Below, in pieces: positions 27,523-50,945 of a DNA stretch of 64,000 nt. Every line of letters starts with the position of its first letter. Positions within the stretch are counted from its first letter, which is position 1. Under the pieces are notes generated by a model. The model searched no databases and was not told the origin of the DNA. It saw only the letters and a program-made list of their open reading frames with translations. The translations under genes were made by a program, and so were the position numbers. Where the stretch lies: assembly GCA_022843385.1 (NCBI GenBank), contig JALHNT010000007.1, forward strand, positions 20,240 through 84,239, read 5' to 3'. This DNA comes from Anaerolineae bacterium. Its GTDB lineage: Bacteria > Chloroflexota > Anaerolineae > Aggregatilineales > Phototrophicaceae.

Positions 27523-27783
27523 TTACAGTCGCGACTTAATCCCTTTGCTCACGCGCACCGAGATCTGACGAAAGCGACGTTCTGGCAGCAGGCGATTTGC
27601 CGCGTGCCGAATCGTCTGTACTTCGATCACGAACAACCCTTCTAACTCAATCCGCCCGCTTCCATCGACCAGTTCCTCCGTCCACACCTCGATCAGCGCT
27701 TCCAACATCGTCTGCACATCGCGGTTCTTCAGGCGGGTGCGGCGTCCGACTTCGCGTACCATCTTGTTCTTCGTTAGGGTCAT
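27523..27783 (-). CDS. HU/IHF-like DNA-binding protein, copy 3 (resident copy)
   Basis: An 86-aa HU-like protein with MTLTKNKMVREVGRRTRLKNRDVQTMLEAL and GSGRIELEGLFVIEVQTI, shorter at the C-terminus than copies 1 and 2. It overlaps the intact traG by ATGA and is the last gene of the long transfer operon, so it is taken as the resident copy. An HU-like protein made together with the coupling protein could shape oriT or the integrase site. Confidence 0.82.
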   Translation of the reverse strand: MTLTKNKMVREVGRRTRLKNRDVQTMLEALIEVWTEELVDGSGRIELEGLFVIEVQTIRHAANRLLPERRFRQISVRVSKGIKSRL

Positions 27784-34001: not shown

Positions 34002-34005
34002 CCCG

Positions 34006-35739
34006 TCATCCCTCGGCCGGACGCAGCAGTAACGGTTTGGCTGTCTGCCGCGCCCGATGGTCGCTGGCAGCAGCTTTCAGTTGGGGCTGGAAGTGTTCCC
34101 AGAACCCGCGCAGGAGCGCCAGCCGGGTCAACTTCCCCTGCGCGACCGCATCGAGCTGCGCTTCCAGCCGGGCGGTGTAGTCATACGACAGGACATCGGC
34201 GAAGTGTGCCATCAGGAAGTCGCACAGCGCCCTGCCGCTCGCGGTGGGGACCAGCCGCCGCTGCCTGATCTTCACATACCCCTTATCCTTGAGGGTTGTC
34301 ACCATGCTGGCAAAGGTCGAAGGGCGACCGATCCCACGCTGTTCCAGCGCCTGCACCAGCCCCGCTTCGGTGTAGCGGGCCGGAGCGCGGGTCTGGTGGT
34401 CTTCCACCTGCAGCGCGACCCGTTGAAGCAGCTGGTTGTCCTGCAACGGCGGCAGTGTTCTCGTCTCGTCATGCCCAGCTTCGTCCTCATCAGCCGGTTC
34501 TTGATAGACCTTGAGGAAACCGTCGAACAGCAGCGAATGGCCCTGCGCCCGAAACTCCAGCGGGAACGGCTGCCCCTGTGTTTGGCCGGCAAAGATGATC
34601 GCGCCGGTGACGGTGTAGCGGGCCGGTGACATCTGCGAAGCGATGAAGCGCTGCCAGATCAGGCGGTACAGCGCCGCCCCATCGCCATCCACGTGCTGCG
34701 GCAGACGCTTCACAGCGGCAGGACGGATGGCTTCGTGTGCCTCCTGCGCGTTCGCCGTCTTGACGGTGTAGGTGGGCGGCTCAGGCGGCCGGTAGTCCGC
34801 TCCATGCTCACTGGCGATGAAGTCCCGCGCTGCCTTCTGGGCTTCGGCGGCGATTGACACACTATCCGTCCGCATGTAGGTGATCCAGCCTTGCTCATAA
34901 AGCAGCTGCGCCAGCGCCATCGTTCGGTCGGGCGACAGCCCGAGCCCCTTCGAGGCGGCCTGCTGCAGCGATGCGGTGGTGAAGGGCGGCAGCGGCTGAC
35001 GGACTTTCACGCTCCGTCCGGCTTGGCTGACCCACAGCTGGGCGGTTTGCAGCCGCCCCACCAGTTTGTCCAGCGGTTCGCGCGTCTTGAAGGTGCTGCC
35101 CCCGCCTTTGCCGTGATACAGCTTTGCCGTGAATTCAGCGCCATCCGCCGCCAGCCTGAGCGCCAGTATCCAGCAGGTCTCGGGCGTGAAGGTCTCGATC
35201 GCGCGTTCGCGCTCGACCACCAGCCGCAGGCAGACGCTCTGCACGCGCCCGGCGGAGCAGCTGCTGTCCAGCGCTTTGGCCGCCAGCGGGGAAGCCAGAT
35301 AGCCCACCAGTCGATCCACGATCCGGCGCGCCTGCTGGGCTTCAACCCTATTCACATCCAGCTCACGCGGCTGCGCCACCGCCGCCTGTACCGCTTCGAC
35401 CGTGACCGCCTGGAAGACGACCCGCTTAACCGGTACGGCTGCTGGCAGTCGCGCCAGCTCGAGCACATGCCAGCCGATGGCTTCGCCTTCGCGATCCGGG
35501 TCGGTGGCGATATAGACGGCGGCAGCGCCTTTCAACGCCCGCAGCAGCCGCTTCAGGACGCGGCCTTTGCCGGGCAGAACGCGGTAGCTGGGGCGGAAGT
35601 CGTCTTCCAGCGCGACCCCCAGTTCAGTATCAGGCAGGTCGCGGACATGCCCCAGACAGGCTTCTACCCGCCAGCCGCTGCCGAGAAAAGCAGCGATCCG
35701 GCGCGCCTTGGCCGGCGATTCGACAATCATCAGGTTCAT
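34006..35739 (-). CDS. topA: type IA DNA topoisomerase of the ICE
   Basis: Toprim N-terminus MNLMIVESPAKARRIAAFLG with the acidic ATDPDREGEAIGWHVL, and the active-site Tyr near residue 287 in QGWITYMRTDSVSI. Type IA enzymes relax negative supercoils by a single-strand break. At 577 aa it lacks the C-terminal zinc-finger extension of chromosomal TopA. Topoisomerases are common passengers of conjugative operons and probably process the transferred strand. Its start overlaps the stop of the 58-aa gene (ATGA). Confidence 0.92.
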   Translation of the reverse strand: MNLMIVESPAKARRIAAFLGSGWRVEACLGHVRDLPDTELGVALEDDFRPSYRVLPGKGRVLKRLLRALKGAAAVYIATDPDREGEAIGWHVLELARLPAAVPVKRVVFQAVTVEAVQAAVAQPRELDVNRVEAQQARRIVDRLVGYLASPLAAKALDSSCSAGRVQSVCLRLVVERERAIETFTPETCWILALRLAADGAEFTAKLYHGKGGGSTFKTREPLDKLVGRLQTAQLWVSQAGRSVKVRQPLPPFTTASLQQAASKGLGLSPDRTMALAQLLYEQGWITYMRTDSVSIAAEAQKAARDFIASEHGADYRPPEPPTYTVKTANAQEAHEAIRPAAVKRLPQHVDGDGAALYRLIWQRFIASQMSPARYTVTGAIIFAGQTQGQPFPLEFRAQGHSLLFDGFLKVYQEPADEDEAGHDETRTLPPLQDNQLLQRVALQVEDHQTRAPARYTEAGLVQALEQRGIGRPSTFASMVTTLKDKGYVKIRQRRLVPTASGRALCDFLMAHFADVLSYDYTARLEAQLDAVAQGKLTRLALLRGFWEHFQPQLKAAASDHRARQTAKPLLLRPAEG

Positions 35740-35912: not shown

Positions 35913-35927
35913 GATTTCCTCCGGTCA

Positions 35928-38036
35928 TCAGGTGGTGCGAAAACGACGCAGCTCGCCTTCGGATGGCCGGCCGTAGAGATGCCACAGCCCTTCATCCTGT
36001 ATGTCGAGCAGAAAGTGAAAGCGCGGCAGGTTGGCGATGATCGCGCGATGCTGTGGGTTCAGATGCTGAAAGGCAGCATCCTCATGAAACACATGCAGTC
36101 CCTGCCGCTGGCTGAAAATGACGCGGATCGGACAATTCTCGAAGATCAGCCGCGCCTTCCCCGTCAGGAACACGCTCATCTGTTGATCGATCATCAGGGC
36201 CTTTTTTCGCCGGGTGCGGAAGGTCTTGGCCGCCTCAATGAGGAAATCCAGCAGTGAGGGATGACGCATCAGCCGGTAGACCTCGTCCACCGCGATGATG
36301 CGCGGCTGCTCGTCGATCAGGCTGTCGCGGCGGATGGCTGAGAGCACTTGCGTATAGGCCAGCGCCTGCATGATCGGATCACCCTCCAGATCGTGGAAGC
36401 TGAAGACCCGCGGTCGGATCCAGTCGCGCCCGCCGCGCGTCAGGTCGATGGTGGTCACGCCGTTGAGGAAGCCAGCCCAGGGACCCGATCCGGTGCACAA
36501 ACCGGCGATCTCATCGGCCAGATCGCGAGCGATGAGCTGGGTCTGTGGTTTGTCCCCCAATCCGGCCAGCACGGCGCACACTGTCTCGCAAGTCGGCGTG
36601 ATGTCAGGTGTGACCCGGCTGAGGTCGGCGAATCCGTCGTACAGGATTTCCAGCGCTTCGCCCAGCAGCCCACGCTCCAGATTCTCGCGCTGGCCGCCGG
36701 ACAGGGAACGCCCCATCACCGTCTCGTAAATGCGGATAGCATGATTCTTTTGTTCGATCAGGGTGGGAAACATGACATCCTGCGGATTGAGGCAGGTGGC
36801 TTTGGCGCTCATGACATACCAGGGTAGATCAAAGGCTTCGGCCAGATGTCGCCCATGTCCCATGGGCTCGAGCAGATCGAACGGGATGCCATTCTCGGCA
36901 TATTCGCGCGTCAGATAACAGTTCAGGCCAAAGGTCTTGCCGTAACCGCTGCTACCCACCCAGATCTCGTGAGTGGCGCGTTTGTCGCGCCATGAATGAT
37001 GGAAGACCGGATAGAATGCCCCCACGGCTTCCCCGCGCAGCACCCCATCGGTGCTGGCGAGCTTGCGATAGCCGAGCGGGGCCAGCAGCAGCGCCAGTTC
37101 ATGCGAGGTGACCGGCCAGGTGGTGTCGGGCAGCCCCAGCAGCCGCGTCGGCTGGGTGCCGAACAACCGCAGCGCCCGCGCCAGCAGCTCACCCACCTCC
37201 GGCCGCAGACTGAACCAGGCGCGCGTCTCGTTCATGACCGTCGCCACCCGTTCCTTGAGCGTGTTCAGATCGTCAGCCGCCACCGCCACCGTCAATTGCA
37301 CATGATGGAGCGCATCCCCCTGATTGATCTCCTGCAGCGTGCGACGACAGTCGGCGATGCGCTGTACTGAACGGCTGTCCTCGCCGCTGATCCCGGCCAG
37401 ATGGGTCTGATAGGCCTGGATGATGCCTTCTACTGCGTTGATCGCGGCATTGCGATCATCAGTTCGCGGGATATCGACCACGATTGCCAGCGGCAGGTTG
37501 AGTAGCAGCAGCACCGCCAGTGGGCGAAAGAAGTTCCACGGGGTGGGCAGGAACTCGTAGCTGCTGAGGATCGCCCAGTACGGCCGCCCACCGGGTCGCC
37601 CGGCCGGAGCCAGATGCCAGTCGGGGTGATCGCGCAGGTGATAAGCTCCCTCGAACAGCGGCGGCCAATCCCCTGGTGTGACCGCCGTATCGAAAGCGGC
37701 CGCCATCGCGCCCGCTTGAGCCCGGCTGTTTTGATCGGTCCACAAGGCCATGCCACAGCGCGAGCGCTGGTAGTGAGCGCTGGACTGAAGCTGCTCATAA
37801 TGACGGCGGTATTCCATCAGCAGCGCCGCTCGCTGCGGTTCGTCGGTCGTCTGCGCCGCGCGACTGACACGGGCGATCTTGTCGTCCAGATTGGCCGGCG
37901 TCTGCCAGCAGATGAAACGCGCCGGGCAGTTGAGCGTCCGCAGCCAGGTGGCGAAGCGATTTTGCAGCGCCTGTACGCCGTCCTCGGTGGCGTGCATCAG
38001 GATGTCGAACGGTTCGATCAGGTAGGTTTGGGTCAT
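35928..38036 (-). CDS. virB4: VirB4/TraE-type T4SS ATPase
   Basis: A 702-aa protein with Walker A GSSGYGKTFGLN near residue 360 and Walker B RIIAVDEVYRLM near 578, followed by FLIEAAKTFRTRRKKALMIDQQ, typical of the VirB4 C-terminal motor. The N-terminal half (RFICWQTPANLDD, LPTPWNFFRPLAVLLL) fits the domain that docks to the inner membrane complex. It energises assembly and transfer. It follows the PrgI/VirB3-like gene with ATGA overlap, the usual order. Confidence 0.9.
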   Translation of the reverse strand: MTQTYLIEPFDILMHATEDGVQALQNRFATWLRTLNCPARFICWQTPANLDDKIARVSRAAQTTDEPQRAALLMEYRRHYEQLQSSAHYQRSRCGMALWTDQNSRAQAGAMAAAFDTAVTPGDWPPLFEGAYHLRDHPDWHLAPAGRPGGRPYWAILSSYEFLPTPWNFFRPLAVLLLLNLPLAIVVDIPRTDDRNAAINAVEGIIQAYQTHLAGISGEDSRSVQRIADCRRTLQEINQGDALHHVQLTVAVAADDLNTLKERVATVMNETRAWFSLRPEVGELLARALRLFGTQPTRLLGLPDTTWPVTSHELALLLAPLGYRKLASTDGVLRGEAVGAFYPVFHHSWRDKRATHEIWVGSSGYGKTFGLNCYLTREYAENGIPFDLLEPMGHGRHLAEAFDLPWYVMSAKATCLNPQDVMFPTLIEQKNHAIRIYETVMGRSLSGGQRENLERGLLGEALEILYDGFADLSRVTPDITPTCETVCAVLAGLGDKPQTQLIARDLADEIAGLCTGSGPWAGFLNGVTTIDLTRGGRDWIRPRVFSFHDLEGDPIMQALAYTQVLSAIRRDSLIDEQPRIIAVDEVYRLMRHPSLLDFLIEAAKTFRTRRKKALMIDQQMSVFLTGKARLIFENCPIRVIFSQRQGLHVFHEDAAFQHLNPQHRAIIANLPRFHFLLDIQDEGLWHLYGRPSEGELRRFRTT

Positions 38037-38503: not shown

Positions 38504-38510
38504 CGGTCGA

Positions 38511-38944: not shown

Positions 38945-40267
38945 TCAGTTGAAGTCCAGACCCCAGCGCCAATCGCCCAGGCTCAGGCTGCCAAAAGGTT
39001 CTCCCCCCCAGCGCCAGCTCAGGCTGATGTCGGCAGCCTGGTCGGGCAGCAAAGCAAACGGAAGCAGATGCAGGGCGGAAATGCGTGGGCCGGCGGGCTG
39101 AGGGATATAACCCAGCGCAAGGGTGAAGTCGCTGGCTTGCAGTGGCAAAACGGTTATGCCACCGTTGTAGAGCCAGAGGCGAATGATGACCTCCCCCTCC
39201 TGGACAGCCGCTTCCACCACTTCAACCGTCAATCCAGCCAAAGGCAGTGGCGTCGGGCTGGGCAGCATCGTCGCAGTCGGCAGCGGTTCGACTGTTGGCT
39301 GTCCGTCGTCTCGCGCCAGTTCCTGATCGGATGGATAATGGGCTGTGACCAGCCAGCGCCAGTCGGTCGGCAATCCGGCCTCATCGGTCTCGCCGATCAG
39401 CAGCAGGATCAACCCGGGCGCGATCTGGCGGAAGAGGCTGGTGTCGCTGCGGCGGATCAGCTGCCGGTCGGCGAAGTGGTAGCGCAAGCGCGCCCCGGTG
39501 TTCAGCTGGAGTTCGAAGGTTGTGGTCTGATCCATCGCCTGGAAAGCGGCAGCGTTGCCCGGCGACCAGGGGATGCCGATCACCGGACGGACGCTGAGAC
39601 CGCTGACAAAGGATGCCACCGCCGGATCCGGATCAAAATACCACTGGGCTGCTCGCACCGCCCGCCGCTGCACCACCCACACCAGCGGAGCTGATCCCGC
39701 GCTGTCCACGCGCAGGTTGACCGGATAGGCCACCGTTCGCCCAGCATCACCCCCCTGAATGATGGCATCCGGATCATCCAGCGCCAGCGGTGTTGGTGTC
39801 AGGGTCAGGCTGCGCGTCGGCGTCAACGCTGTCGTCGGCGAACGCGGCATGGCGTCAACCGCTTCCGGCCGATTGAAGAGCAATAATCCCATCCCCATCA
39901 GACCCATCAGCACCAGCCCGACGACCAGCAGCAGCGGATTGCGCCGCCCGCCAGGATGATCATCCGCTTCCGAAAGCGCCAGACGGTCTCCCTGCTGCGC
40001 CGCCTGACGCACCCGTGACGGGGTCCGCGCCCAGCGCGATCCCACTGGCACCAGATCGTATTCCTGGTAACGGCGCAGCAGTTCGGCATTGATCTGCCGT
40101 TCCAGCGCATCCGAGCCGAGCGCTTCAGCCCGGCGCAGTTCGCGCTCATAGATCTGCTGGTAATGTCGCTGGCGATCGGTCGGCACCAGCTCCCACAACG
40201 CCTGTAACGCCTCCAGCGGCTGAGACCGGAGTTGATCCAGCGGGACAAAGGGCACGGGTTCGCTCAT
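38945..40267 (-). CDS. single-pass membrane protein with stalk and extracytoplasmic domain
   Basis: 440 aa: a cytoplasmic helical N-terminus (ERELRRAEALGSDALERQINAEL), a membrane helix (LLLVVGLVLMGLMGMGLLLF, about 110-130), a TPTRSLTLTPTP linker and an outside domain with beta-strand character. The topology resembles VirB8 or TrbF-like scaffold proteins, but no sequence match can be claimed. Overlap with the VirB6-like gene (40264/40267) places it in the channel complex. Confidence 0.62.
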   Translation of the reverse strand: MSEPVPFVPLDQLRSQPLEALQALWELVPTDRQRHYQQIYERELRRAEALGSDALERQINAELLRRYQEYDLVPVGSRWARTPSRVRQAAQQGDRLALSEADDHPGGRRNPLLLVVGLVLMGLMGMGLLLFNRPEAVDAMPRSPTTALTPTRSLTLTPTPLALDDPDAIIQGGDAGRTVAYPVNLRVDSAGSAPLVWVVQRRAVRAAQWYFDPDPAVASFVSGLSVRPVIGIPWSPGNAAAFQAMDQTTTFELQLNTGARLRYHFADRQLIRRSDTSLFRQIAPGLILLLIGETDEAGLPTDWRWLVTAHYPSDQELARDDGQPTVEPLPTATMLPSPTPLPLAGLTVEVVEAAVQEGEVIIRLWLYNGGITVLPLQASDFTLALGYIPQPAGPRISALHLLPFALLPDQAADISLSWRWGGEPFGSLSLGDWRWGLDFN

Positions 40268-42642
40268 GGCAGATTCCCTTCCTCAGGCGGTGGCACGGCC
40301 ACCCGACCGTAAGCGCTGATCTGAGACGGTAGCAGCGCTGCTGCTTGCTCCAGTCGCCGCACTGCGTCGCGAGCATCATCCCAGGAAAAGCTGTGTTGGT
40401 CGCGCATCTGTTCCGTCAATGCTTGACGCGAGGGTTCACTCAACCGTGACTCAGGCGAGTCGCTGATTTCCCAGGCCACCTGTTCGGTCTGTTCCGGCGA
40501 CAGCTTGAGCTGCTGCGCCTGGCGCGGGAACAAACCCAGCCGCGCCAGATCGGTCTGCACTGGCGGGATGTCTGCCACGGGCTCGACGCCGAGCGCCTGG
40601 GCAATACGCTGTCCCGTCTGGAGATGATCGAGCGGCGATGATGGCTCCGGATCGTTCTGCGACAAGCGCAGCACATCTCCCATCACGCTGGCGACCGCCT
40701 GACTGCCGCTGATCGTCATCTGACCGACCGCGTACAGGCTGGCGGCGCGACTGAGCGCCTCAGCGCTCGCTTCCAGACGAGCCGCCGCTTGTTCCAGGGC
40801 TGAGGCATCGCTAGAACGGTCTGCCTGAAGCGCTGCTGTCCGTTGCGGTTCGATGTCCTCACCGGGCTGATGGGTCGCTTCATCGCGCTCGTCCCGCTGC
40901 TGGCGGCTCGCAACCGAGTCAACCCGTGCCAGCGGTGTGAACTGACCCAAACGGCGTGGCTCGACTGGGGTGAAGGCGCTCCCATCGGCGGAGTCTTCGC
41001 CCGTGTCACGTTTATGCCGGGCTTGCCTGGGTACCGTCCAGGCAGCCAGCGCCTCGCCCACCGCCGGGATCAGCATCGGGCGAGACGTCACCTGCCCTGG
41101 CGCACCGTACCGGGCATGATCGGGATCACGGTCGCTCAGGAGAGCAGCACCCAGCAGCGGGCCAGTCGCCCGTCCGACAAAAGGCACCTGTCCGGCGACC
41201 CGTCGGGTGGCTGCGCCCTCGCTGAACTGCTCCGCGGCTTCGCCCAGCGGTGTATCGCGCACACCGGGCAGATAAGCCAGCGCTCGCGCGGCCTGCGTCA
41301 TGGTCTGTGAGCCACCCAGCAGCAGCCCGGCGGTCTGAGCCGGCGTTGCGCCGTGTTGAAGTGCCAGCGATCCAGCCATTGCGCCGGCACCCAGACCGGC
41401 AACCGCTCCCACCGCGCCCATGCCGGCGCTGGCGAGGGTTCCCGCGGCCTGACCGGGCGTGATGAAGCTGCCACCCGCCGCCTGTCCAAAGGCACCGAAG
41501 AGCCGGTTGAAGCTGTTCCACACCGCTTTCAGGCTCGATACCAGCACGATCAACATGAAGACCAGACAGATCAGACCGATGCCGAACATGACCATGCCGC
41601 TGCCGCTGGTGGTCCCGGCCAGGAACAGCGCCACCACCAGCGCCTGGATCAGGGCGATGATGACGGTCTGGATGACCAGTTCCAGCCATTGTTGCAGAAT
41701 CGACTGGGCGATGATCTCGGTGCGCTTGAAGAAGGCGAACAGGATGGCGATGGCGAAGGAGATGAAGGTGATGCCCTGCGCCAGGGTGATCAGCGCATAC
41801 ACCAGTTGTTCGATCACACCGAAGAGCAGCAGCGGCCAGGCGGTCAGCAGGCGTCCCTGGGAACCCATCGCCAAACTGATCGAGGCACTGCGTTCAGCCG
41901 CCGACATGATCGCAAAATTCATGGGCGAGTTGGCCGCAGCAAAGTACGAACCGGCGAAGTTCCACTCCATCGGCACTGGGCTGAGATAAGACCCGGTCAA
42001 CGGATGGAAAAAGTGTGGTGGGCAGCCGGGCGAATACCACGGCTGGGCATAGCCCATCACATCCGGACCATCAGCACGCAGATAGGCCAGCGCTACATCC
42101 AGGCCATCAATAGTGGCCGCGCCGGTCGCGCCGGGCAGATAGACACCCAGATTGTCGCAGGGCGGCAACATCCCCAGGTCGGTAGTCTGCACTGGACTGA
42201 GCGAGGCGAAAGCGCCGCTGTTGCTTTGCAAGCCATTCAGCACACTCAGGTAAAAGGCCTGTCCAACGCCCAGACGAAATTCATTCATCTCGCGATAGAA
42301 GGTTGGGCCGATGGTGAAGAACAGGATGCCGGCCAGATACCACAGCATGGCGCTGCGTGCTTCCACAACCCGCCAGCGCACCAGTGCTGACAGCAGATAG
42401 GTCAGACCCAGCACCAGCAGGGCGATGACAAAAGTCAGGCTGACCGCGACGCGCAGACTGTCGTTCGTCAGGTCGATCAGCGGGCTGAAAGCTACTTCAA
42501 TCAGCCAGCGATTGATGAGTTCCAGCGTGTAACCCATCATGATGAAGCCGCGCTGCATGCCCCAGTGGATTGCTGCCAGTTGATACACCAGGTTGTACCA
42601 CAGGCTGTCGATCTGAATCTGGATGCCGCCCAGGATGTCCAT
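40264..42642 (-). CDS. VirB6/TrbL-like polytopic channel protein
   Basis: 792 aa. The N-terminal 400 residues hold several hydrophobic helices (LRVAVSLTFVIALLVLGLTY, WYLAGILFFTIGPTFY, ALITLAQGITFISFAIAILF, VIIALIQALVVALFLAGT, VMFGIGLICLVFMLIVLVSS). They are followed by a Gly/Ala-rich stretch and a long soluble tail rich in Ala, Glu and Arg. This is the layout of TrbL/VirB6-type proteins that line the inner-membrane pore. The large tail may regulate entry into the recipient. Confidence 0.78.
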   Translation of the reverse strand: MDILGGIQIQIDSLWYNLVYQLAAIHWGMQRGFIMMGYTLELINRWLIEVAFSPLIDLTNDSLRVAVSLTFVIALLVLGLTYLLSALVRWRVVEARSAMLWYLAGILFFTIGPTFYREMNEFRLGVGQAFYLSVLNGLQSNSGAFASLSPVQTTDLGMLPPCDNLGVYLPGATGAATIDGLDVALAYLRADGPDVMGYAQPWYSPGCPPHFFHPLTGSYLSPVPMEWNFAGSYFAAANSPMNFAIMSAAERSASISLAMGSQGRLLTAWPLLLFGVIEQLVYALITLAQGITFISFAIAILFAFFKRTEIIAQSILQQWLELVIQTVIIALIQALVVALFLAGTTSGSGMVMFGIGLICLVFMLIVLVSSLKAVWNSFNRLFGAFGQAAGGSFITPGQAAGTLASAGMGAVGAVAGLGAGAMAGSLALQHGATPAQTAGLLLGGSQTMTQAARALAYLPGVRDTPLGEAAEQFSEGAATRRVAGQVPFVGRATGPLLGAALLSDRDPDHARYGAPGQVTSRPMLIPAVGEALAAWTVPRQARHKRDTGEDSADGSAFTPVEPRRLGQFTPLARVDSVASRQQRDERDEATHQPGEDIEPQRTAALQADRSSDASALEQAAARLEASAEALSRAASLYAVGQMTISGSQAVASVMGDVLRLSQNDPEPSSPLDHLQTGQRIAQALGVEPVADIPPVQTDLARLGLFPRQAQQLKLSPEQTEQVAWEISDSPESRLSEPSRQALTEQMRDQHSFSWDDARDAVRRLEQAAALLPSQISAYGRVAVPPPEEGNLP

Positions 42643-42653
42643 CTCTAGTGGCC

Positions 42654-42758
42654 CTAACCGACCAGCGCCATCAGGCCGATCACAACGCTCAGAAACAGGA
42701 TCACGGGCAGCAGGAGCAGCACGATGGAACGGCGCAGCAGAATCGGATCATATCGCAT
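42654..42758 (-). CDS. 34-aa single-helix membrane peptide, below the ORF-track cutoff
   Basis: Hand translation: MRYDPILLRRSIVLLLLPVI, followed by FLSVVIGLMALVG. The ribosome site is AAAGGA seven bases before the ATG. The stop lies 11 bases before the VirB6-like start. It has an Arg-rich N-terminus, then a single hydrophobic helix, the look of a small assembly subunit. Its site, spacing and operon position support it. Confidence 0.6.
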   Translation of the reverse strand: MRYDPILLRRSIVLLLLPVILFLSVVIGLMALVG

Positions 42759-42787
42759 CAGCAAATCCTTTCGATCAGTTGTCGGTT

Positions 42788-44011
42788 TCAGGGAATCAGC
42801 CCCGGTTGATTGCCGGGCGTGAGCAGCAGGGTGAACCGCGTCGGACCGTTGGCGCGCTGCGGCGGCACATCCCAGGTCTTGCCAAAATACGGCACAATCA
42901 CCCGGATTGCGGTCGTGGTTGTGACGGACAACTGCGCCAGTCCAGCCGCGTCGGTCAGCGTTTGCGCCAGCACCCGATTGCTGCGAATTTCGACCAGTCG
43001 CACTGAAATCCCGATCAGACCTTCGGCAGGTTCAACTGCGCGGTTGCCATTCTCGTCGTAAGCGATCACCACCATCACCTGCATCTGATAAGCGGCTGGC
43101 GGCGTCGGTGTCGGCCGCAGGCGTGATGGATCGGCCAGTTGCTCAACGACTATGGGCTGTGGACTGGGAGTGGGTGTGATGGTCGAAAGGTACGGCGTCA
43201 TCACCAATAGGTCTGGGCTGCCGCGAAAGACCTGGATAGCATCGAGGGCGATGACCGTGCCACTGCTGGCAGGGTTTTTGCGCCCAGTGTGGCGGATTTC
43301 CAGCACATGAGTGCCGGATCCGACGATGTAGGTTGGTGATGTGGCATAGCGCAGTTCAGACGCATAGGCATCCAGCGCGTCAATCACCTGACCATCAATG
43401 GTAATGTCCATCCAGCCCATATTGGTGGCGGCCACATAACGAAGGCTGATCCCCTGCCCCTCAAAGATGAAGCGCGCCACCGCCCCCACGACATCAGTCC
43501 GATGGTATTGTCCACGACTGGCCTCGTGTGCCTGCCGTCGTTCCCACAGCGGTGTATAAATAACCGAGGGGAAATCCGATTCGAAACGATACCAGCCCAC
43601 AAAGGGCGGCGCGGCACGGGTCGCGTCGGGCAGGGGTTCGAACTGGGGTGGTAGTTCGGCTATTAAGGTGACAGCAGACAACTGTCCCGGTGTTGTTGCA
43701 TCCGATGACTCGGAAGATTGGGCGCTGATGTTCAACACGTGCGTGGACAGCGTGGCGGTATCAGTTGCTGTAGCCGTTGCTGTCTCAGTAAAGGTGGGAG
43801 TCGCTGTCCCCGTTGGCGTTACGGTGGCGGTTATGGTTGCCATTGGCGTCCGACTGGGTCGGGCAGAGGCGGTGAGCGACGGCAGCACATGGCGTGTTGG
43901 CAGCACGGTATCGTCCCCGCTCCCCCGTCCCATCCACCACAGCCAACCCGTGCCTGCCCCCAGAAGCGGGCAAAACACCAACACCATCAGCCAGAGCGCT
44001 GTCCGTCGCAT
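42788..44011 (-). CDS. stalked surface protein at the head of the transfer operon
   Basis: 407 aa: membrane anchor/signal MRRTALWLMVLVFCPLLGAG, a Thr-rich stalk (ATITATVTPTGTATPTFTET), a lectin-like domain (GWYRFESDFPSVIYTPLW...GTHVLEIRHTGRKNPAS), a short TP linker, and a Cna-B/SdrD-like immunoglobulin domain (VIAYDENGNRAVEPAEGLIGISVRLVE). It is likely exposed on the donor cell and could recognise recipients. It shares its stalk style with the secreted proteins at the window's left. The TATA/TP stalk appears to be the host's way to span its envelope. Confidence 0.7.
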   Translation of the reverse strand: MRRTALWLMVLVFCPLLGAGTGWLWWMGRGSGDDTVLPTRHVLPSLTASARPSRTPMATITATVTPTGTATPTFTETATATATDTATLSTHVLNISAQSSESSDATTPGQLSAVTLIAELPPQFEPLPDATRAAPPFVGWYRFESDFPSVIYTPLWERRQAHEASRGQYHRTDVVGAVARFIFEGQGISLRYVAATNMGWMDITIDGQVIDALDAYASELRYATSPTYIVGSGTHVLEIRHTGRKNPASSGTVIALDAIQVFRGSPDLLVMTPYLSTITPTPSPQPIVVEQLADPSRLRPTPTPPAAYQMQVMVVIAYDENGNRAVEPAEGLIGISVRLVEIRSNRVLAQTLTDAAGLAQLSVTTTTAIRVIVPYFGKTWDVPPQRANGPTRFTLLLTPGNQPGLIP

Positions 44012-44095: not shown

Positions 44096-44737
44096 CTAGA
44101 CGGTTTCCAGATAGAAGAAGCCTTCAGCAGCAGCGCGGCTGACGAGATGGGCATTGGTATCAGCGGCGAAACGTAGGCGCAGCCGTTCGCAGATGCCGTA
44201 CACCTGACGGCGCGTCAATCCCAACCGGGCGGCGATCTCGCCTGGAACAAGTCCCTGCGCCAGTCCCTGCAATACGCGCTGTGCCGGGGCATCCAGCGAA
44301 CGGGTCTGGCGTGGTGCCTGCAGGGCGATCAGATATTCGGCGTTGGCAGTTGGCGACAAAAAGGGGCGATCGCGCAGGACGGTATCCACGGCCAGACTGA
44401 GACAGTCCTGCAGATCATCGCTGCGGTACAGATAGCCCTTTGCCCCTTGTTGGAACAAGTCGCGGATCAGCAGGCCATCGACCAGACCGCCGATCACGAT
44501 GATCCGCAGCTTTGGTTTCAATCTGCGAAGCTGCTGTACTGTGTTGAGGACATCGCCTGGATAAAGCCACTCTCCCAGGAGAAGGACATCTGGATAATGG
44601 CTGCAAACCTGCTCCAGCAGTGTGGGAACATCCCGTGCTGTCCCGACCACCTGATAACGATGATCGGATTCCAGTACCGTCTGAGCACCGATTATGCTGA
44701 GATCAGCATCGTCAGCAATCATCAAGCGTATCGCCAT
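44096..44737 (-). CDS. NarL-like regulator with a dead receiver domain
   Basis: 213 aa: receiver-like N-terminus (MAIRLMIADDADLSIIGAQTVL) and a GerE-type HTH (RVLQGLAQGLVPGEIAARLGLTRRQVYGICERLRLRF). The place of the phosphorylated Asp reads PDVLLLGEWLYPG, with Gly instead of Asp, so it cannot be phosphorylated at that site. Such pseudo-receivers work without a kinase, often through partner or ligand binding. It is a paralogue of the next gene, and no kinase gene is near. It probably regulates ICE genes. The 44012-44095 gap is upstream of the transfer operon. Confidence 0.8.
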   Translation of the reverse strand: MAIRLMIADDADLSIIGAQTVLESDHRYQVVGTARDVPTLLEQVCSHYPDVLLLGEWLYPGDVLNTVQQLRRLKPKLRIIVIGGLVDGLLIRDLFQQGAKGYLYRSDDLQDCLSLAVDTVLRDRPFLSPTANAEYLIALQAPRQTRSLDAPAQRVLQGLAQGLVPGEIAARLGLTRRQVYGICERLRLRFAADTNAHLVSRAAAEGFFYLETV

Positions 44738-44790
44738 CCCTCATTTCCCCCCACGAGATCACGGTATGGATGAATGGATTGTGACCTACC

Positions 44791-45429
44791 TCAATCGTCT
44801 AGCAGACCCCGTTTGCGCGCGGTATCGACAAGCTGTTCGTTGGTGCGAACGCCCAGCAGCTGCCGCAAACGGCCATAAATGCGATAAATGCTCCGTACCG
44901 ACAGGTCGAGGTGGAGCGCAATTTCCTGTGGAATGAAGCCTTCGCCCATCAGTTGCAGCACGGCCAGATCGCTCTGATTGAATTGGTCAGGATTGGATGA
45001 TTGCCAGTTCGAGCAAAACAGAGTCATCGCTCGGGGCGACAAATAGGTATTGCCATCCCAGACCGACTTGATCCCTGTCACCAGTGTGTCTTCCAGCCGA
45101 TCCAGCTTGTAAATCAGGCCGCGTGCTCCACTGTCGAACACGCGCCGGACATAACGTGGATTCAGACGATTTGCCAGAATGATGATGCTCAGACCGGGAT
45201 GATCCCCGCGCAGCCGATCTAATAGCTGGTGAAGATCAACAGCACGCGGCAGCGAATCATCCAGCAGCAGCATATGAGCCCGATTGGCTTCCAGAAACAG
45301 CTCGGCTTGGCTCAGATCAGTGTAGGATCCCACAACCTGAAGGGGAAAATCACAACTGCTCAACAGCATTTGGATGCCATGTCGGCTCAAATCCTGTTTG
45401 TCAACGATCACGAGTCGAAGAGGCTGCAT
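44791..45429 (-). CDS. NarL-like response regulator, orphan
   Basis: Receiver domain with AHMLLLDDSLP, keeping an Asp at the phosphorylation site, though the usual DD acidic pair at the N-terminus reads VIVDKQD. The C-terminal LuxR HTH is AVLQLMGEGFIPQEIALHLDLSVRSIYRIYGRLRQLLGV. The track start at 45489 is replaced by ATG 45429 (AAAGG nine bases upstream; MQPLRLVIVD is the family-type start), giving 212 aa. It is divergent from the XRE pair and shares with it the operator-like repeats at 45494-45591. Confidence 0.82.
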   Translation of the reverse strand: MQPLRLVIVDKQDLSRHGIQMLLSSCDFPLQVVGSYTDLSQAELFLEANRAHMLLLDDSLPRAVDLHQLLDRLRGDHPGLSIIILANRLNPRYVRRVFDSGARGLIYKLDRLEDTLVTGIKSVWDGNTYLSPRAMTLFCSNWQSSNPDQFNQSDLAVLQLMGEGFIPQEIALHLDLSVRSIYRIYGRLRQLLGVRTNEQLVDTARKRGLLDD

Positions 45430-45493
45430 GATGGGATACCTTTCCTGATGTCTGATCATAGTGTGACAGATGGCGCTCAGCCACCACAAGCAT

Positions 45494-45591
45494 CATGGTC
45501 AATTTTGCCGCAGGCATTGTCAGCAATTGACCATGCGGAAGAGCCATCATGGTATAATTGCCAGATTACTGTGTACGATTGTGTGGTACAC
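45494..45591. promoter_or_regulatory. divergent control region with two inverted repeats
   Basis: CATGGTCAATT (45494-45504) and AATTGACCATG (45525-45535) form an 11-bp perfect inverted repeat with a 20-base spacer, a three-turn centre spacing expected for a looping or two-site regulator. Further right, GTGTAC (45571-45576) and GTACAC (45586-45591) form a second one. On the plus strand TTGACC (45527) and TATAAT (45553) look like -35/-10 boxes, but the 20-base spacing is long. The region controls the XRE pair and the orphan regulator. Confidence 0.5.
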
Positions 45592-45646
45592 TTCGCGTTG
45601 ATTATAGATAAGTTGAAAATAAAAGCAACAGATATGGTAAAGTGAA

Positions 45647-46108
45647 ATGGCGGACCTGCTTGAAGACTTCCTACCGCTTGCCGAACAGGTCAATATCCTG
45701 TTCCAGCATGTGCTGCATCCAGAGGGTCGGCCTTATACACTCGATGAAGTCAGTCAGCAATGCCACGTCAGTGTGGCAACCTTGAGCCAGTTACGCACCG
45801 GGCGCATCACCAATCCCCAGTTGAGCACTTTGCGGTCGCTCTGTCGTTTTTTTCAGGTGCCGCTGCGCTATTTCGAGACGCGTTCGGTAGAAGCCTGTTA
45901 TGCCGTGCTGGCCGAAAAACAGCCCGATGACAACACAACAGAATTGAACGAAATCGCGTTTCGCGCGATTCACTTGTCACCAGAAGCCCAACGCGATGTG
46001 CTCAAAGTGATTCAGTGGGTTCAGGCAGCCGAGCGGCTGCGCCACAGTGGTATTGATATTCCAGCCCTGCCGGGTCTGGATGACAACAGGGAACCGAGCG
46101 GTGACTAG
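45647..46108 (+). CDS. XRE-like HTH regulator 1
   Basis: 153 aa. The HTH-like part reads YTLDEVSQQCHVSVATLSQLRTGRITNPQLSTLRSLCRFFQVPLRYF, a cro/C1-type domain. A helical C-terminus (AIHLSPEAQRDVLKVIQWVQ) resembles regulators paired with ImmA proteases or quorum peptides. It overlaps the next gene, a clear paralogue, so the two may form a heterodimer. Confidence 0.8.
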   Translation: MADLLEDFLPLAEQVNILFQHVLHPEGRPYTLDEVSQQCHVSVATLSQLRTGRITNPQLSTLRSLCRFFQVPLRYFETRSVEACYAVLAEKQPDDNTTELNEIAFRAIHLSPEAQRDVLKVIQWVQAAERLRHSGIDIPALPGLDDNREPSGD

Positions 46109-46517
46109 CCGGAGAAGCAATCCGGCCGGTTCGGCAGCCATCACTACCACTCAACAATTACAACTGCTGCTGAACAGCGTCCCCCCGGGTCACGATCGTC
46201 CTAGTAATCTCAGCGAAATCGCCCAGACGGTGGGCTTATCCGTGCAGACGCTGGCGAAACTGGTGAGTGGGCAAACGGCTGATCCCCGTCTGGATACGCT
46301 GCGCCGCCTGTGTCAGTATTACCGGGTTTCGCTCGATTACTTTTCTGGTCAAACCCTCACCGAATGCCAGGCTTACCTCAATCAGCAGCGTCTGGCTGCT
46401 GCATCTTCCGTCATCCACGAAATCGCCAGACAGACCGATTCTCTGTCGCAACGGAGCCAGGGCAATATCCAGCTCATTCTCCGGTGGCTTGAAGCCGATC
46501 AATTACCGCATAGCTAA
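46101..46517 (+). CDS. XRE-like HTH regulator 2
   Basis: The same layout as its neighbour: NLSEIAQTVGLSVQTLAKLVSGQTADPRLDTLRRLCQYYRVSLDYF, then a helical tail (SQRSQGNIQLILRWLE). A GTG at 46101 within the end of gene 1 is preferred to the track start at 46047, giving 138 aa. It ends four bases into the convergent PAP2-like gene. Paired paralogous XRE proteins next to ImmA resemble ImmR/ImmA control of Bacillus ICEs. Confidence 0.78.
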   Translation: MTSRRSNPAGSAAITTTQQLQLLLNSVPPGHDRPSNLSEIAQTVGLSVQTLAKLVSGQTADPRLDTLRRLCQYYRVSLDYFSGQTLTECQAYLNQQRLAAASSVIHEIARQTDSLSQRSQGNIQLILRWLEADQLPHS

Positions 46518-47122
46518 ACCGGATTACCCAGCACCAACGGAAACACGATCAGTACCGGTAGGATGCCGACCAGCAAACCCAGAATAACCTGAGTGACGGT
46601 GTGGTTCTTGGTAACCACCCGCGCCCACATCGTGATTGCCACCAAGCCCACGATCAATATCTGGAGGGCAGGCGTACCGAGCTCCCCCAGCAACCATAAC
46701 GCACTGGCGCAGCCAGCGGCTACCGCCGCGTGTGTTGATAGCTTCGTGAGGTAGCGGTTGATCAACCACTGTGCTGGCACCCAGATCGCCAGGGTCAGTA
46801 GACAGGCGATGAGGACTACTGGCGCGCGCAACAACACCAGCAGCCCCAAACAAACCAATGTGCTCACCCAACCTGTCAGATACAAAGGATCACGGGTCCG
46901 GCGCTGATAGATGAACTGCTGCTGACGACGCAGATAGGCTTCCAGCAGCAGACCGGGGATCAGCAGGAGTCCCAATATCAGCACCGACCACAGGACGATT
47001 TCGCTCAGCGACAAGTCTTTCAGGATGACGACTAATGTCGGCAGCCCCAGCAGGTACGGGTGCAGTATCCGTCCGATCCAGTAAGCCAATCGATGACGAT
47101 TGTCGGGAACAACATCCATCAC
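46514..47122 (-). CDS. PAP2-like membrane phosphatase
   Basis: 202 aa with five or six hydrophobic helices. Two parts recall PAP2 phosphatases: KLSTHAAVAAGCA for the SGH motif and ARVVTKNHTVTQVILG for the SRxxxxxHxxxD motif, though the Ser and Asp positions are changed, so activity is uncertain. PAP2 enzymes dephosphorylate lipid phosphates. It overlaps the DUF6545-like gene by ATGA, so the two are made together. Confidence 0.65.
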   Translation of the reverse strand: MMDVVPDNRHRLAYWIGRILHPYLLGLPTLVVILKDLSLSEIVLWSVLILGLLLIPGLLLEAYLRRQQQFIYQRRTRDPLYLTGWVSTLVCLGLLVLLRAPVVLIACLLTLAIWVPAQWLINRYLTKLSTHAAVAAGCASALWLLGELGTPALQILIVGLVAITMWARVVTKNHTVTQVILGLLVGILPVLIVFPLVLGNPV

Positions 47123-48093
47123 ACCAACTCCGAAAGCGTTGTAATGAGTCGCGAATAAGAATGTGACGACTGAACAATTGCCTGGATTTCATGATACAGC
47201 GTTTTGCCCTCGTCGCGGATCCGAATCAGCGGGTAGTGATCCAGGATGAAGATCAACAGACGATAGATCGTCAATTCCAGTTGATCTGGAAGCAGTTCTC
47301 GCCGAGAAAGCACAAGTGATGGTCGCTGGAACTCAGCCATCGTCTGAATTTGCTGGGCGAGCCGCCTGATCTGCCACCAGCGATAGAGCCGTGATGGATA
47401 CTGCAAGGGAACGAGCCAGCGATGAGGCAGAAGAATCACAACAAAGTTCAACAGCCCGATGTAAACCAGGATCACGAAGGGTGCGCCAAATGCCTCAGCA
47501 TTGGGAACCTTCAGGACGTACAGGATCAGCACGGCGATATTGACAACGGCGACACCAACGTAACAGACACAGGCAATGATTGAGGCGATATGTTTGACCT
47601 TCATCGAGCCAACCTGTTCTCGTCGTGCCAGGCGAAAACTGCTGGGGAGAAAGGCGCTAACCAGATAGATGAGCATGACGGCATCCCGCAGCCCTACCGT
47701 CAAATGACGAAATCCAGTTCTGGAAAGGATAGTCTCATTGTTGAAGAGCAGGAAGTAAAGGATACCGCCAACCAGCGTCAACGGTCCGAGGTAAGCCAGA
47801 AAGTGATAATGCTCTGCCTCGATATCAATGTCGCGGAGCGAGAGATAGTAGAGATGAAACATGCCAATCATGGCTGCTGACTTCACCAGAACCGTTACGG
47901 AGTGACCGGCAAATAACTGATCAAACGACTGCTCGACCGCCGCTCCCATGAGGGAAACCGTTGTCAGCGCGAGGAAGAATTGGATCCAGATATAGGTGGA
48001 TCTCCGGCTGATGAAGCGCCGCCGGATGAGCGCTCGGCACAGCATCCAACCAAAGATCAACCACAGAACACCAACGATCAGACTGTAAACCAT
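47119..48093 (-). CDS. seven-helix membrane protein, DUF6545/MAB_1171c-like
   Basis: 324 aa. About seven membrane helices fill the first 230 residues (MVYSLIVGVLWLIFGWMLC, FFLALTTVSLMGAAV, VLVKSAAMIGMFHLYYLSL, VVNIAVLILYVLKV, FVILVYIGLLNFVVILL). A cytoplasmic tail follows with LELTIYRLLIFILDHYPLIR. This plan, and an ImmA-type protease immediately upstream, match the actinobacterial MAB_1171c/DUF6545 proteins as I remember them, whose role is unknown. It could be a sensor or transporter for a signal. The family assignment is by pattern only. Confidence 0.62.
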   Translation of the reverse strand: MVYSLIVGVLWLIFGWMLCRALIRRRFISRRSTYIWIQFFLALTTVSLMGAAVEQSFDQLFAGHSVTVLVKSAAMIGMFHLYYLSLRDIDIEAEHYHFLAYLGPLTLVGGILYFLLFNNETILSRTGFRHLTVGLRDAVMLIYLVSAFLPSSFRLARREQVGSMKVKHIASIIACVCYVGVAVVNIAVLILYVLKVPNAEAFGAPFVILVYIGLLNFVVILLPHRWLVPLQYPSRLYRWWQIRRLAQQIQTMAEFQRPSLVLSRRELLPDQLELTIYRLLIFILDHYPLIRIRDEGKTLYHEIQAIVQSSHSYSRLITTLSELV

Positions 48094-48102
48094 TAGTCCT
48101 CG

Positions 48103-48615
48103 CTAACCAACAAAGCCCATGCCGGACGCAAACTGAGAAAACGCGGCGATAGACGATAACTCACCGGTCAATTCCATCATCCGTCGCGCACGCACAATCT
48201 CGGTCTGAATGAGAAAGACGAAGAATTCCGATTCCTGCTCCTGCTCATCATCGGTAATCTGGAGCTGGATCTGCCGTGATCGTCCTGTGGCGGCCGTTCC
48301 TTGAAGCTGCTTGAGCAGTTCAGGGGGTAGTATCTCTTCCAGGGGTTGGCAGCGATGTTTCAGAACGATGTGAGCCAGTTCATGCAGGATGATGTGAATC
48401 TGATGCATCGGGTGGGTGTTCTGGGCATAAAAGATGTAGTCAACCGCCGAAGCAGGAATCCACAATCCAGTCAAACCCGGATGAAAGGGATACCCAACAC
48501 AGATAATCTGGCGCTGTCGCTGAGTCTGTACCCGCTGCAACAGGCTCTTCAATTCGAACTGCTGAAAGTCATAGTCCAGGTCCTTAATCGCCTGGCGAAC
48601 GCGGTCGAACTCCAT
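48103..48615 (-). CDS. ImmA/IrrE-type zinc metallopeptidase
   Basis: 170 aa with the zinc-protease motif IILHELAHIVLKHR (HExxH), preceded by a beta-rich segment (RQIICVGYPFHPGLTGLWIP) typical of ImmA/IrrE (PF06114). ImmA cleaves the XRE repressor ImmR in Bacillus ICEBs1, triggering excision. Here two XRE-like proteins lie close by and the integrase gene diverges from this gene. It is the first gene of a three-gene unit with the seven-helix protein and PAP2-like protein, suggesting membrane-borne input to the protease. Confidence 0.82.
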   Translation of the reverse strand: MEFDRVRQAIKDLDYDFQQFELKSLLQRVQTQRQRQIICVGYPFHPGLTGLWIPASAVDYIFYAQNTHPMHQIHIILHELAHIVLKHRCQPLEEILPPELLKQLQGTAATGRSRQIQLQITDDEQEQESEFFVFLIQTEIVRARRMMELTGELSSIAAFSQFASGMGFVG

Positions 48616-48969: not shown

Positions 48970-49161
48970 ATGACATCTGATTCATTGACAACGGGCAAAC
49001 CAGAGGAGATGCTCAGACGCATCCTGCGCGTGGCTGAATTGCTGGCACACAGTCTCAATGCAGATGTTCAAACGCAATCGGAGATGGGCGTAGACGATAA
49101 TCTGGATTCGAATGACGACACGCCGGGAACACAAAAACACAGGACTCCGAATTGGGTGTAA
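48970..49161 (+). CDS. 63-aa protein upstream of the integrase, possible excision factor
   Basis: MTSDSLTTGKPEEMLRRILR continues through an amphipathic helix (VAELLAHSLNADVQ) and an acidic tail. The site AGAGGTGAT precedes the ATG. It is followed 30 bases later by the integrase. Recombination directionality factors of serine integrases are often small, varied and encoded nearby, so it is a candidate; nothing in the sequence proves it. Confidence 0.5.
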   Translation: MTSDSLTTGKPEEMLRRILRVAELLAHSLNADVQTQSEMGVDDNLDSNDDTPGTQKHRTPNWV

Positions 49162-49191: not shown

Positions 49192-50922
49192 ATGAGTCGT
49201 CGAAACAGCAAGCGCCTGCCGCCGAAACCGGGATGGGCAGTCTATCTGCGGACCAGTGATGAGGAGGCGCAGAACCCGGAAGCATCCCAGGCGCGACAGC
49301 GTTATCTCATCCAGAAATCCGTTTTGGATCGCTCGGATTTGCCAGTCCTTGATGAATACATCGACTTGCTGACCGGACGCACACCTCGGCGCACCGGCTA
49401 CCAGCGAATGCTGGAAGATGCCCGGATGGGACGCTTCTCGCATGTGATTGTCGAGCGTGCTGACCGTTTTGGTCGTAATGATACTGAAGCGTTACGTGCC
49501 ATTGATGAACTGGATGAGTTTGGCGTAGCGGTACGTTTTGCCAATCAGCCTGATCTTGATCCGATGTCACCCGACGACCGAGTGATTGTCGCGCTTTCGT
49601 TTACCCTAGCGCGACGTGAGAGCATGATGACCAGCCTGAGAATCAAAGGAGCTGTTGACGCTAAACGGGACAACGGCGGCTACATTGGACGTGCGCCCGA
49701 TGGGTATATCAGCGTCGAAGATGAGCAGCCCCATCGCAAGACGTATGCGCGACGCACCCATCATATTGAACCCGACCCCGAACGTGCTCCGATCTGGCGA
49801 CTGGCGTGGGATTTACTGCTCGAAGATCGTTTGACCCTGGCTGAAATCGCTGAAACGTTACATGCACGTGGGTATCGCTACCGCAGTGGTCGCCCTTTTG
49901 TTGAGGTGAAAGCCAATGGCAAACGCAAAGCCAACTACAACTCAATGGCGTACAGCTTCCACAACTGGTCTTATGCGGGTTGGATTGTCAACGAAGAACT
50001 GGGCATTCTCCCGAAAACACTGCGTGGCGACTGGGAACCGCTGGTTTCGACTCAGGAATTTGAGCACGGGCTGGAAATCCTGGCGAAGCGGTCTCGCCAC
50101 AAATACGCCAAGCGCAAAAATGATTATCTGTTAAAGAGGCTCATCTTTCTATCCGCGTCACCGCTCGATCCAACCCAACCGGGTGACAAACTCTATCGGC
50201 TGACTGGCTCAACCTCCAACCCAGGTCGCTCAGGCGGTGGCACCGCCCATTACCGATTGGATCACCACCCCATTCATTTTCTTTGTTCTGAGGTTGAAAG
50301 CCAGCTTGCTTCCCACCTTCAGCAGGTTCAGGTCGATGATGCGTTAATGCCTCTGATTCGTGATTACTATATCAACGAAGTGGCTGACAAACTCGGACGG
50401 CTGCGCCCGGATGAACGAACAGAGATTGAACGCGCATTGAAGCAGATCGACGAAGAGGAAGCCAGAGTCCTGCGGCTCTACGCAGCGACGATGGTCACAG
50501 AGGAAAACTGGCGTAACTTGTGGGCAGAATGGCAGGACAAGCGCCATAAACTGCGGGCAAGTCTGGACTTGCTCGACCAGAAATGTGAGAGCTACATCGA
50601 TGATCTGGATGAGGCGCTCACCATAATTGCGAAATTGGGTATACTGTATGAAACATTATCGCGCAGCGACCAGAAGGAACTGCTGCGAAATGTGGTTGAG
50701 AGAGTCATTGTCAATGTCGGGGGCGAGATAGAACGTGTGGAATTGCTGCCGCCCTTTGCTTACCTGCGCGAAGTCTGCGAGAAGGTAAGTGGCGGTGAGG
50801 AAACTTCGGAGAACCTCGCGAGAATCGAAACAGGTGACATTGCCGCCACCTGTTCGAGTAAAGTCCTGGAATGTGGGCCCGCCAGGATTCGAACCTGGAA
50901 CCTCACAGTTATGAGCCGTTAG
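49192..50922 (+). CDS. int: large serine recombinase (integrase) of the ICE
   Basis: 576 aa. The resolvase N-domain has the catalytic Ser near residue 22 (WAVYLRTSDEEAQ), then FSHVIVERADRFGRNDTEALRAIDEL and a recombinase domain (IGRAPDGYIS, LTLAEIAETLHARGYRYRSGRPF). The zinc-ribbon region, which usually has CxxC pairs, reads LLKRLIFLSASPLDPTQPG and lacks those cysteines. A coiled-coil stretch follows (EEEARVLRLYAATM). The last residues (PARIRTWNLTVMSR) are encoded by the antisense of the tRNA-Met gene, so the coding end overlaps the likely attachment site. Confidence 0.92.
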   Translation: MSRRNSKRLPPKPGWAVYLRTSDEEAQNPEASQARQRYLIQKSVLDRSDLPVLDEYIDLLTGRTPRRTGYQRMLEDARMGRFSHVIVERADRFGRNDTEALRAIDELDEFGVAVRFANQPDLDPMSPDDRVIVALSFTLARRESMMTSLRIKGAVDAKRDNGGYIGRAPDGYISVEDEQPHRKTYARRTHHIEPDPERAPIWRLAWDLLLEDRLTLAEIAETLHARGYRYRSGRPFVEVKANGKRKANYNSMAYSFHNWSYAGWIVNEELGILPKTLRGDWEPLVSTQEFEHGLEILAKRSRHKYAKRKNDYLLKRLIFLSASPLDPTQPGDKLYRLTGSTSNPGRSGGGTAHYRLDHHPIHFLCSEVESQLASHLQQVQVDDALMPLIRDYYINEVADKLGRLRPDERTEIERALKQIDEEEARVLRLYAATMVTEENWRNLWAEWQDKRHKLRASLDLLDQKCESYIDDLDEALTIIAKLGILYETLSRSDQKELLRNVVERVIVNVGGEIERVELLPPFAYLREVCEKVSGGEETSENLARIETGDIAATCSSKVLECGPARIRTWNLTVMSR

Positions 50923-50945
50923 CTCTGCCGTTGAGCTACGGGCCC
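50874..50945 (-). tRNA. tRNA-Met (anticodon CAT)
   Basis: The minus strand gives acceptor GGGCCCG, D-arm GCTC...GAGC, anticodon loop CTCATAA, T-arm with GGTTCGAATCC and 3' CGGGCCC plus A. The anticodon CAT means elongator or initiator Met, or Ile2 if modified. The integrase ORF ends inside it at 50922 and adjoins its 3' end, so this is the presumed integration site. Confidence 0.92.

Follow-up and report, generated by a model that had tools for sequence, protein, structure and literature searches.

A recurrent XRE, ImmA-like, seven-helix and PAP2-like gene set beside the recombinase of an integrative and conjugative element in Chloroflexota

The window analysed here is a stretch of 64,000 nucleotides from an Anaerolineae bacterium of the Chloroflexota (order Aggregatilineales; GenBank assembly GCA_022843385.1, contig JALHNT010000007.1, positions 20,240 to 84,239). 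It carries an integrative and conjugative element (ICE) with a module that comprises two XRE-family genes (XRE1 and XRE2), a gene for an ImmA/IrrE-like protease (ImmA), genes for a seven-helix protein (7TM) and a PAP2-like membrane protein (PAP2), and two genes for NarL-like regulators (RR1 and RR2) (Table 1). A first-pass annotation of this DNA had listed this gene set together with an integrase, and all of its members lie where it placed them. ImmA, 7TM and PAP2 form a tight leftward operon running from 48615 to 46514. XRE1 and XRE2 (45647 to 46517, forward strand) converge on it, so that two paralogous XRE genes do face a three-gene unit. RR2 and RR1 point away from XRE1 and lead into the leftward transfer genes, while the recombinase gene is divergent from the ImmA gene.

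Table 1. Features of the module, the surrounding element and the natural fusions; positions are those of the window unless a locus is named.
Feature	Position	Strand	Basis
VirD4/TraG coupling protein	27780..29801	-	T4SS-DNA_transf 1.2e-32
Type I DNA topoisomerase	34006..35739	-	Topoisom_bac 2.5e-107
VirB4-like ATPase, GSSGYGKT	35928..38036	-	Walker A; colinear homologues
VirB6-like multi-transmembrane protein	40264..42642	-	sequence character; colinear homologues
p407, conserved ICE protein, 407 residues, head of the transfer operon after RR1	42788..44011	-	most relatives with enough flank have a homologue after the module
RR1, NarL/LuxR-type regulator	44096..44737	-	Response_reg 2e-9; 12 orthologues
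RR2, NarL/LuxR-type regulator, start MQPLRL	44791..45429	-	Response_reg 4.8e-9; 12-orthologue alignment
Perfect 11-bp inverted repeat, 20-base loop, upstream of RR2	45494..45535	.	private to the window locus
Predicted promoter (sigma-70-like) toward RR2-RR1 and the transfer operon, TTGCTT-16-TATAAT	45601..45629	-	same register in 10 aligned loci
XRE1, EspR-type helix-turn-helix (HTH) repressor candidate, 153 residues	45647..46108	+	HTH_3 4.3e-7; full-length EspR match, E 4.5e-13
XRE2, XRE1 paralogue, 138 residues, overlapping XRE1 at its end, convergent with the PAP2 gene	about 46101..46517	+	HTH_3 8.7e-9
PAP2, PAP2-superfamily membrane protein, 202 residues, 4-bp overlap of its start codon with the 7TM stop	46514..47122	-	invariant residues; family Pfam matches
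7TM, seven-transmembrane protein, 324 residues, cytosolic C-terminal helical part; MAB_1171c/DUF6545 superfamily	47119..48093	-	AlphaFold2; positive-inside; hhalign
ImmA, ImmA/IrrE-like zinc protease, 170 residues, first gene of the operon	48103..48615	-	HELAH; family M78 matches; hhalign
Small conserved open reading frame, 63 residues, EEMLxRVxRVAELLA, between ImmA and recombinase	48970..49161	+	similar frame in the corresponding position in several relatives
Large serine recombinase of the ICE, 3' end inside tRNA-Met	49192..50922	+	Resolvase 3.6e-22; Recombinase 8e-6
tRNA-Met at the right end, putative attachment site	50873..50945	-	ARAGORN
Natural fusions of 7TM (MAB_1171c) and PAP2	L113:5172-7100, L114:5872-7902, L115:6055-8043		single open frame

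We searched 151 genomes of the same order for 7TM homologues and found full-length ones with 21-39% identity. Most of the genomes compared are metagenome assemblies, and the window's own genome is 7% contaminated. RR1, RR2, XRE1, XRE2, PAP2, 7TM, ImmA and the recombinase fall into clean one-to-one orthologue groups over some 15 loci, and the gene set therefore recurs far beyond chance. The XRE2 group is separate from that of XRE1. The best-kept proteins are XRE1 (45-67% identity) and PAP2 (46-55%), and an XRE1 orthologue is present in every module locus with flanking sequence except L030. A recombinase of the same family adjoins the module in each of the 13 copies from the order that have enough flank. 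This integrase and a type IV secretion system with VirB4 and the coupling protein are kept as a unit, as expected of an ICE, and the ICE integrase that had been reported beside the module is of the large serine recombinase type, with a gene that terminates within tRNA-Met. In a class-wide sample, ICEs of this type were found in no other order (5 of 298 genomes).

The family assignments of ImmA, PAP2 and 7TM are weak on the single window proteins and become firm only at the family level. The window ImmA alone stays below the Pfam cut-off for Peptidase_M78 (15.7 of 22 bits), and 9 of 16 members of its family match that domain, the best at 4e-6. The metal site, HELAH with the downstream residues E126/E130, is kept in nearly all members. 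The locus has three features of an ImmA/ImmR-type switch: a HEXXH protease of the ImmA/IrrE (M78) family, candidate XRE repressor genes (XRE1 and XRE2) and, as predicted from sequence, a promoter for transfer genes adjoining the repressor gene. PDB sequence searches with the ImmA, 7TM and PAP2 profiles gave no matches. The ImmA profile also matches actinobacterial proteins annotated as "toxin" or "ParH-like" (hhalign E 1.4e-26). These annotations would suit a toxin-antitoxin (addiction) module with ImmA as the toxin and XRE as the antitoxin, and Xre-COG2856 pairs have been proposed as modules of that kind (PMC2701414). This interpretation is very improbable here. The analogous pair of TnSmu1 was tested and behaved as a regulator and not as a toxin-antitoxin pair (PMC10233336), and an addiction module leaves the 7TM and PAP2 genes and the promoter layout unexplained. 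Moreover, a PADLOC search returned only weak HTH matches for the XRE proteins, among them XRE2 with CapH (E 5e-5), and none for the ImmA, 7TM or PAP2 of the window.

By itself the window 7TM had no match in direct Pfam, NCBIfam or PADLOC searches, and a plasmid search queried with it came back empty. The profile of its family does match MAB_1171c/DUF6545 (hhalign, 95.7%, E 8.9e-9, 287 columns), which bears out the label given in the first-pass annotation. The curated cut-off of NF042915 / PF20182 is not reached by the window protein, and 2 of 16 family members match weakly. The homology extends over the whole protein and is accompanied by the same neighbourhood. Like the MAB_1171c/DUF6545 "putative transporter" proteins, 7TM has seven helices, an ImmA-like gene directly upstream and an XRE gene nearby, and its C-terminal IYRxVIxILDxY corresponds to their LYRRVIEIRDG-like motif. 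Unlike them, it is too diverged for direct hidden Markov model matches, has a shorter C-terminal part and lies in an ICE, with PAP2 where those loci have a cytochrome P450 (P450) or a flavin adenine dinucleotide (FAD) monooxygenase. An AlphaFold2 model (11 sequences, predicted local distance difference test, pLDDT, 82) has seven long helices followed by a helical tail of about 100 residues. The odd loops and the tail are positively charged, which by the positive-inside rule predicts an N-out/C-in topology. A literature search found no paper giving DUF6545 a function, in agreement with the first-pass annotation. MAB_1171c itself has been treated as a transport gene, and its knockout lowered biofilm mass (PMC8707978), a phenotype that does not define function.

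Across 13 PAP2 homologues the residues R74, R77, K127, S129, H131, R168, H174 and Q178 are invariant. They include the arginine and the two histidines expected at the three motif positions of the PAP2 superfamily (R74/R77, H131, R168, H174), whereas the aspartate of motif 3 is replaced by glutamine, giving HxxxQ in place of HxxxD. The window protein alone lies just under the Pfam gathering cut-off (24.8 of 27.2 bits), and the PAP2 domain is matched by 9 of the 13 family members. We take the HTxxQ motif to be CAX4/DOLPP1-like. Wherever it was measured (12 of 12 loci), the stop codon of 7TM and the start codon of PAP2 share exactly 4 bp, and at three Chloroflexota loci (L113, L114 and L115, from G081 and two loci of G089) the two are fused in one frame of 643-677 residues with 7TM first. 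The fusions and the fixed coupling argue that 7TM and PAP2 act together as a functional unit. Two groups of candidates were set aside. PAP2 proteins of Chloroflexales that are 30% identical (L051 on) have no such ImmA, 7TM or XRE gene nearby and represent a separate use of the fold. L050, L061 and L063, where ImmA stands beside only part of a PAP2 gene, seem to be remnants or assembly chimeras.

The module is no invention of the ICE, for it also occurs on plasmids and in stretches of Chloroflexota DNA where no recombinase was seen. In G016, another member of the Chloroflexota, a bona fide MAB_1171c gene (E 1.4e-76) takes the place of 7TM in the order XRE, ImmA, 7TM, PAP2, and no recombinase was recognised within the stretch read there. 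Plasmids of Amycolatopsis and Streptomyces have the same order. Those of Rhodococcus and Tomitella show the window layout, in which ImmA-7TM-PAP2 faces the XRE genes, and a Kocuria plasmid carries the full set, its XRE gene reading the same way as the other three. Other Streptomyces copies keep XRE, ImmA and 7TM, with PAP2 replaced by a P450, an FAD monooxygenase or a polysaccharide deacetylase. In all of 24 further flanked 7TM loci from Chloroflexota and Actinomycetota, ImmA directly precedes 7TM, and 23 of them have an XRE gene no more than 5 kb away. Since a PAP2 search led to eight of these loci, the proportion with PAP2 among them cannot be read as a frequency; PAP2 is present in 6 of the 14 loci found through 7TM. 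IMG/VR contigs called viral (L183-L186) have the XRE-ImmA-7TM trio, again with ImmA directly upstream of 7TM. A set found mostly outside mobile elements and free of XRE genes would have contradicted the first-pass annotation; the neighbourhood search instead found the same four genes in other Chloroflexota and on actinobacterial plasmids, almost all copies having an XRE gene. A literature search returned no earlier description of the XRE-ImmA-7TM-PAP2 set, subscription journals being mostly out of its reach. As to neighbouring genes, uppS (polyprenyl diphosphate synthase) directly follows XRE-ImmA-7TM-PAP2 on a Streptomyces plasmid (L122:4652-5371), and two Streptomyces MAB_1171c/ImmA loci (L099, L105) lie near genes for lanthipeptides or LxmA-type ribosomally synthesised and post-translationally modified peptides.

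The fixed overlap, the fusions and an order kept across two phyla tie 7TM, PAP2 and ImmA together more strongly than had been claimed. They also bear on the view that the locus is an ordinary ImmA/ImmR switch with a cytosolic DNA-damage trigger and that the membrane genes are passengers. The mobile-element switches described in two papers do answer RecA/DNA damage or Rap/Phr peptides (PMC6540685, PMC10233336), but a membrane gene follows ImmA in every such locus seen in both phyla, and passengers with a fixed overlap and 7TM-PAP2 fusions are quite improbable. It is also unlikely that 7TM and PAP2 are the output of the switch, controlled by ImmA and XRE and serving to remodel envelope lipids or to exclude a second copy of the element during transfer. 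Such a role would fit the placement of both membrane proteins in one operon, the conserved catalytic-type residues of PAP2 and the exclusion or envelope proteins that conjugative elements often encode. However, ImmA heads the same operon and always stands beside 7TM, even where no conjugation genes were seen or PAP2 is replaced, and an exclusion protein needs no fixed protease partner.

XRE1 consists of an HTH and a C-terminal helical part. The DNA just upstream of it is conserved: ATTATA is common to ten aligned loci, and all of these except the window also have GTCAA, at matching positions of the alignment. In the direction of RR2, the relatives have a predicted strong promoter of the form TTGACa-16-TATAAT, 18-60 bp before the XRE1 start, which stands out against shuffled sequences in 9 of them (p<=0.01). 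A TTG-N10-CAA dyad, spotted by eye, lies inside this promoter. The operator-like repeats of the first-pass annotation correspond to one perfect 11-bp inverted repeat. It was rejected as a shared operator since the relatives lack it, and the conserved feature is instead the predicted sigma-70 promoter. The two NarL-like regulators downstream both have degenerate receiver domains. In RR1 the phospho-acceptor aspartate is replaced, and 11 of 12 orthologues lack it. Most orthologues of RR2 retain that aspartate, but the Mg-binding acidic pair is lost, so that neither regulator has the full phosphorylation site of a response regulator. Both probably work without a kinase.

On balance we lean towards a reading in which XRE blocks the promoter, ImmA inactivates XRE, and 7TM-PAP2 controls ImmA from the membrane on a tRNA-integrated conjugative element; we judge it somewhat probable on the sequence comparisons. 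XRE1, together with XRE2, would bind just upstream of its own gene and block the promoter for RR2-RR1 and the transfer operon. The zinc protease ImmA would inactivate an XRE protein. 7TM, the constant third component of the XRE-ImmA pair, would govern ImmA from the membrane. It would do so as a unit with PAP2, at the inner membrane face and via its cytosolic C-terminal part, and the timing of repressor removal would depend on a membrane or lipid-linked condition. RR2 and RR1 may then serve as activators that are independent of phosphorylation, given their degenerate receiver domains. PAP2, or an enzyme substituting for it, may supply or remove what 7TM reads. That signal could conceivably be a prenyl or polyprenyl lipid, which would fit the CAX4-like motif and the uppS neighbour. 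A third component for Xre-COG2856 pairs was foreseen in a 2009 survey (PMC2701414). The recurrent four-gene set suggests an undescribed membrane route to switching DNA transfer on. The ImmA/XRE switch proposed in the first-pass annotation is supported in being tied to the ICE, with the membrane genes in the protease operon, but it is not confined to ICEs.

Several observations weigh against this model. The nearest solved relative of XRE1, in both sequence and fold, is full-length EspR, followed by DdrO over the HTH only. The window's own copy of the promoter is weak (p 0.3), its TTGCTT being weaker than the element of the relatives. PAP2 is not obligatory, its place in Actinomycetota often being taken by a P450 or FAD monooxygenase gene. 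At L030 ImmA and 7TM are present, and no PAP2 or XRE1 was found. The recombinase family occurs in 47 of the 151 genomes, mostly without the module, which is thus one control cassette among those of such elements. A Foldseek comparison of the 7TM model with the PDB gave nothing significant; the top entries were mostly G-protein-coupled receptors (E >1, template modelling scores about 0.33-0.43), and the likeness of the predicted fold to them is one of shape only.

Proteases of the ImmA/IrrE family are common switches of mobile elements, and to our knowledge their inputs are cytosolic (RecA, Rap proteins, single-stranded DNA). In DdrO/IrrE and CapH/CapP, as proposed here, an HTH repressor is inactivated by an M78-type protease; XRE1 matches DdrO in its HTH, and XRE2 weakly matches CapH. 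The signals in both systems are DNA damage, and we know of no membrane partner for either. EspR, which XRE1 matches over its full length, is a nucleoid/ESX-1 regulator of M. tuberculosis with a different genomic context; it is not known to us to work with an ImmA protease. The closest precedents are ICEBs1, in which ImmA cleaves the XRE repressor ImmR (PMC6540685), and TnSmu1, where a similar ImmRA module is in control and cleavage has been proposed (PMC10233336). Both share with the window an XRE-family repressor candidate, a HEXXH protease, a transfer promoter by the repressor gene and the ICE itself. The window module differs in having the protease in a separate operon with the 7TM and PAP2-like membrane proteins, two EspR-type XRE genes and two degenerate NarL-like regulators. 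Unlike in ICEBs1, no Rap/Phr genes were found among the window module genes.

If true, the model would account, through a conserved membrane partner, for the way in which surface or lipid signals get to an XRE repressor. DUF6545 and the many "toxin/ParH-like" genes of actinobacteria would gain a function, and conjugation could become open to manipulation in Chloroflexota and on Rhodococcus plasmids. A broader and rather doubtful extension is that XRE-ImmA-DUF6545 with PAP2, P450 or FAD monooxygenase forms a general class of transmembrane signalling systems in Chloroflexota and Actinomycetota. The variable fourth enzyme would make or edit a small, hydrophobic signal (e.g. an isoprenoid), 7TM would be the receptor that activates ImmA, and the repressor would be destroyed; ICEs and plasmids would have adopted the system as a mating or quorum switch.

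In the rest of the element the genes after RR1 follow the order p407, VirB6, p440, VirB4, topoisomerase, p380, p873 and VirD4. This secretion gene order is complete in G419, with VirD4 on the other strand. The genes are colinear in G302 and G387, with VirD4 not within the stretch read, were read as far as VirB4 in G443 and were partly read in G368. The secretion region of the window (27780-44011), in which conserved uncharacterised proteins of 873 and 380 residues are also encoded, has VirB4, VirD4, a VirB6-like protein and the topoisomerase, and no relaxase was recognised there by Pfam. No direct repeat of at least 11 bp with the tRNA end was found in window positions 1-31000, and the left end of the ICE was not located. 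The 63-residue frame before the recombinase is a candidate recombination directionality factor.

Recombinases of this family end inside, or a few bases from, the 3' end of a tRNA gene that runs in the opposite direction (window 49192-50945; L021-L038; L129-L158). This was the case at 13 of 15 loci checked and at 24 of 30 loci in another set that has some members in common with the first, and the tRNAs concerned are those for Met, Gln, Ser, Lys, Ala, Asn, Leu, Glu and Val. Targeting of tRNA genes is more typical of tyrosine integrases. Tandem serine recombinase genes, for proteins of about 313 and 576 residues, are present at L027:10606-13283 and L034:9839-12567. The window's genome (G000) has four further recombinases of the family, on C18, C45, C89 and C15, and the one on C89 sits at a second stretch resembling the tRNA-Met of the window.

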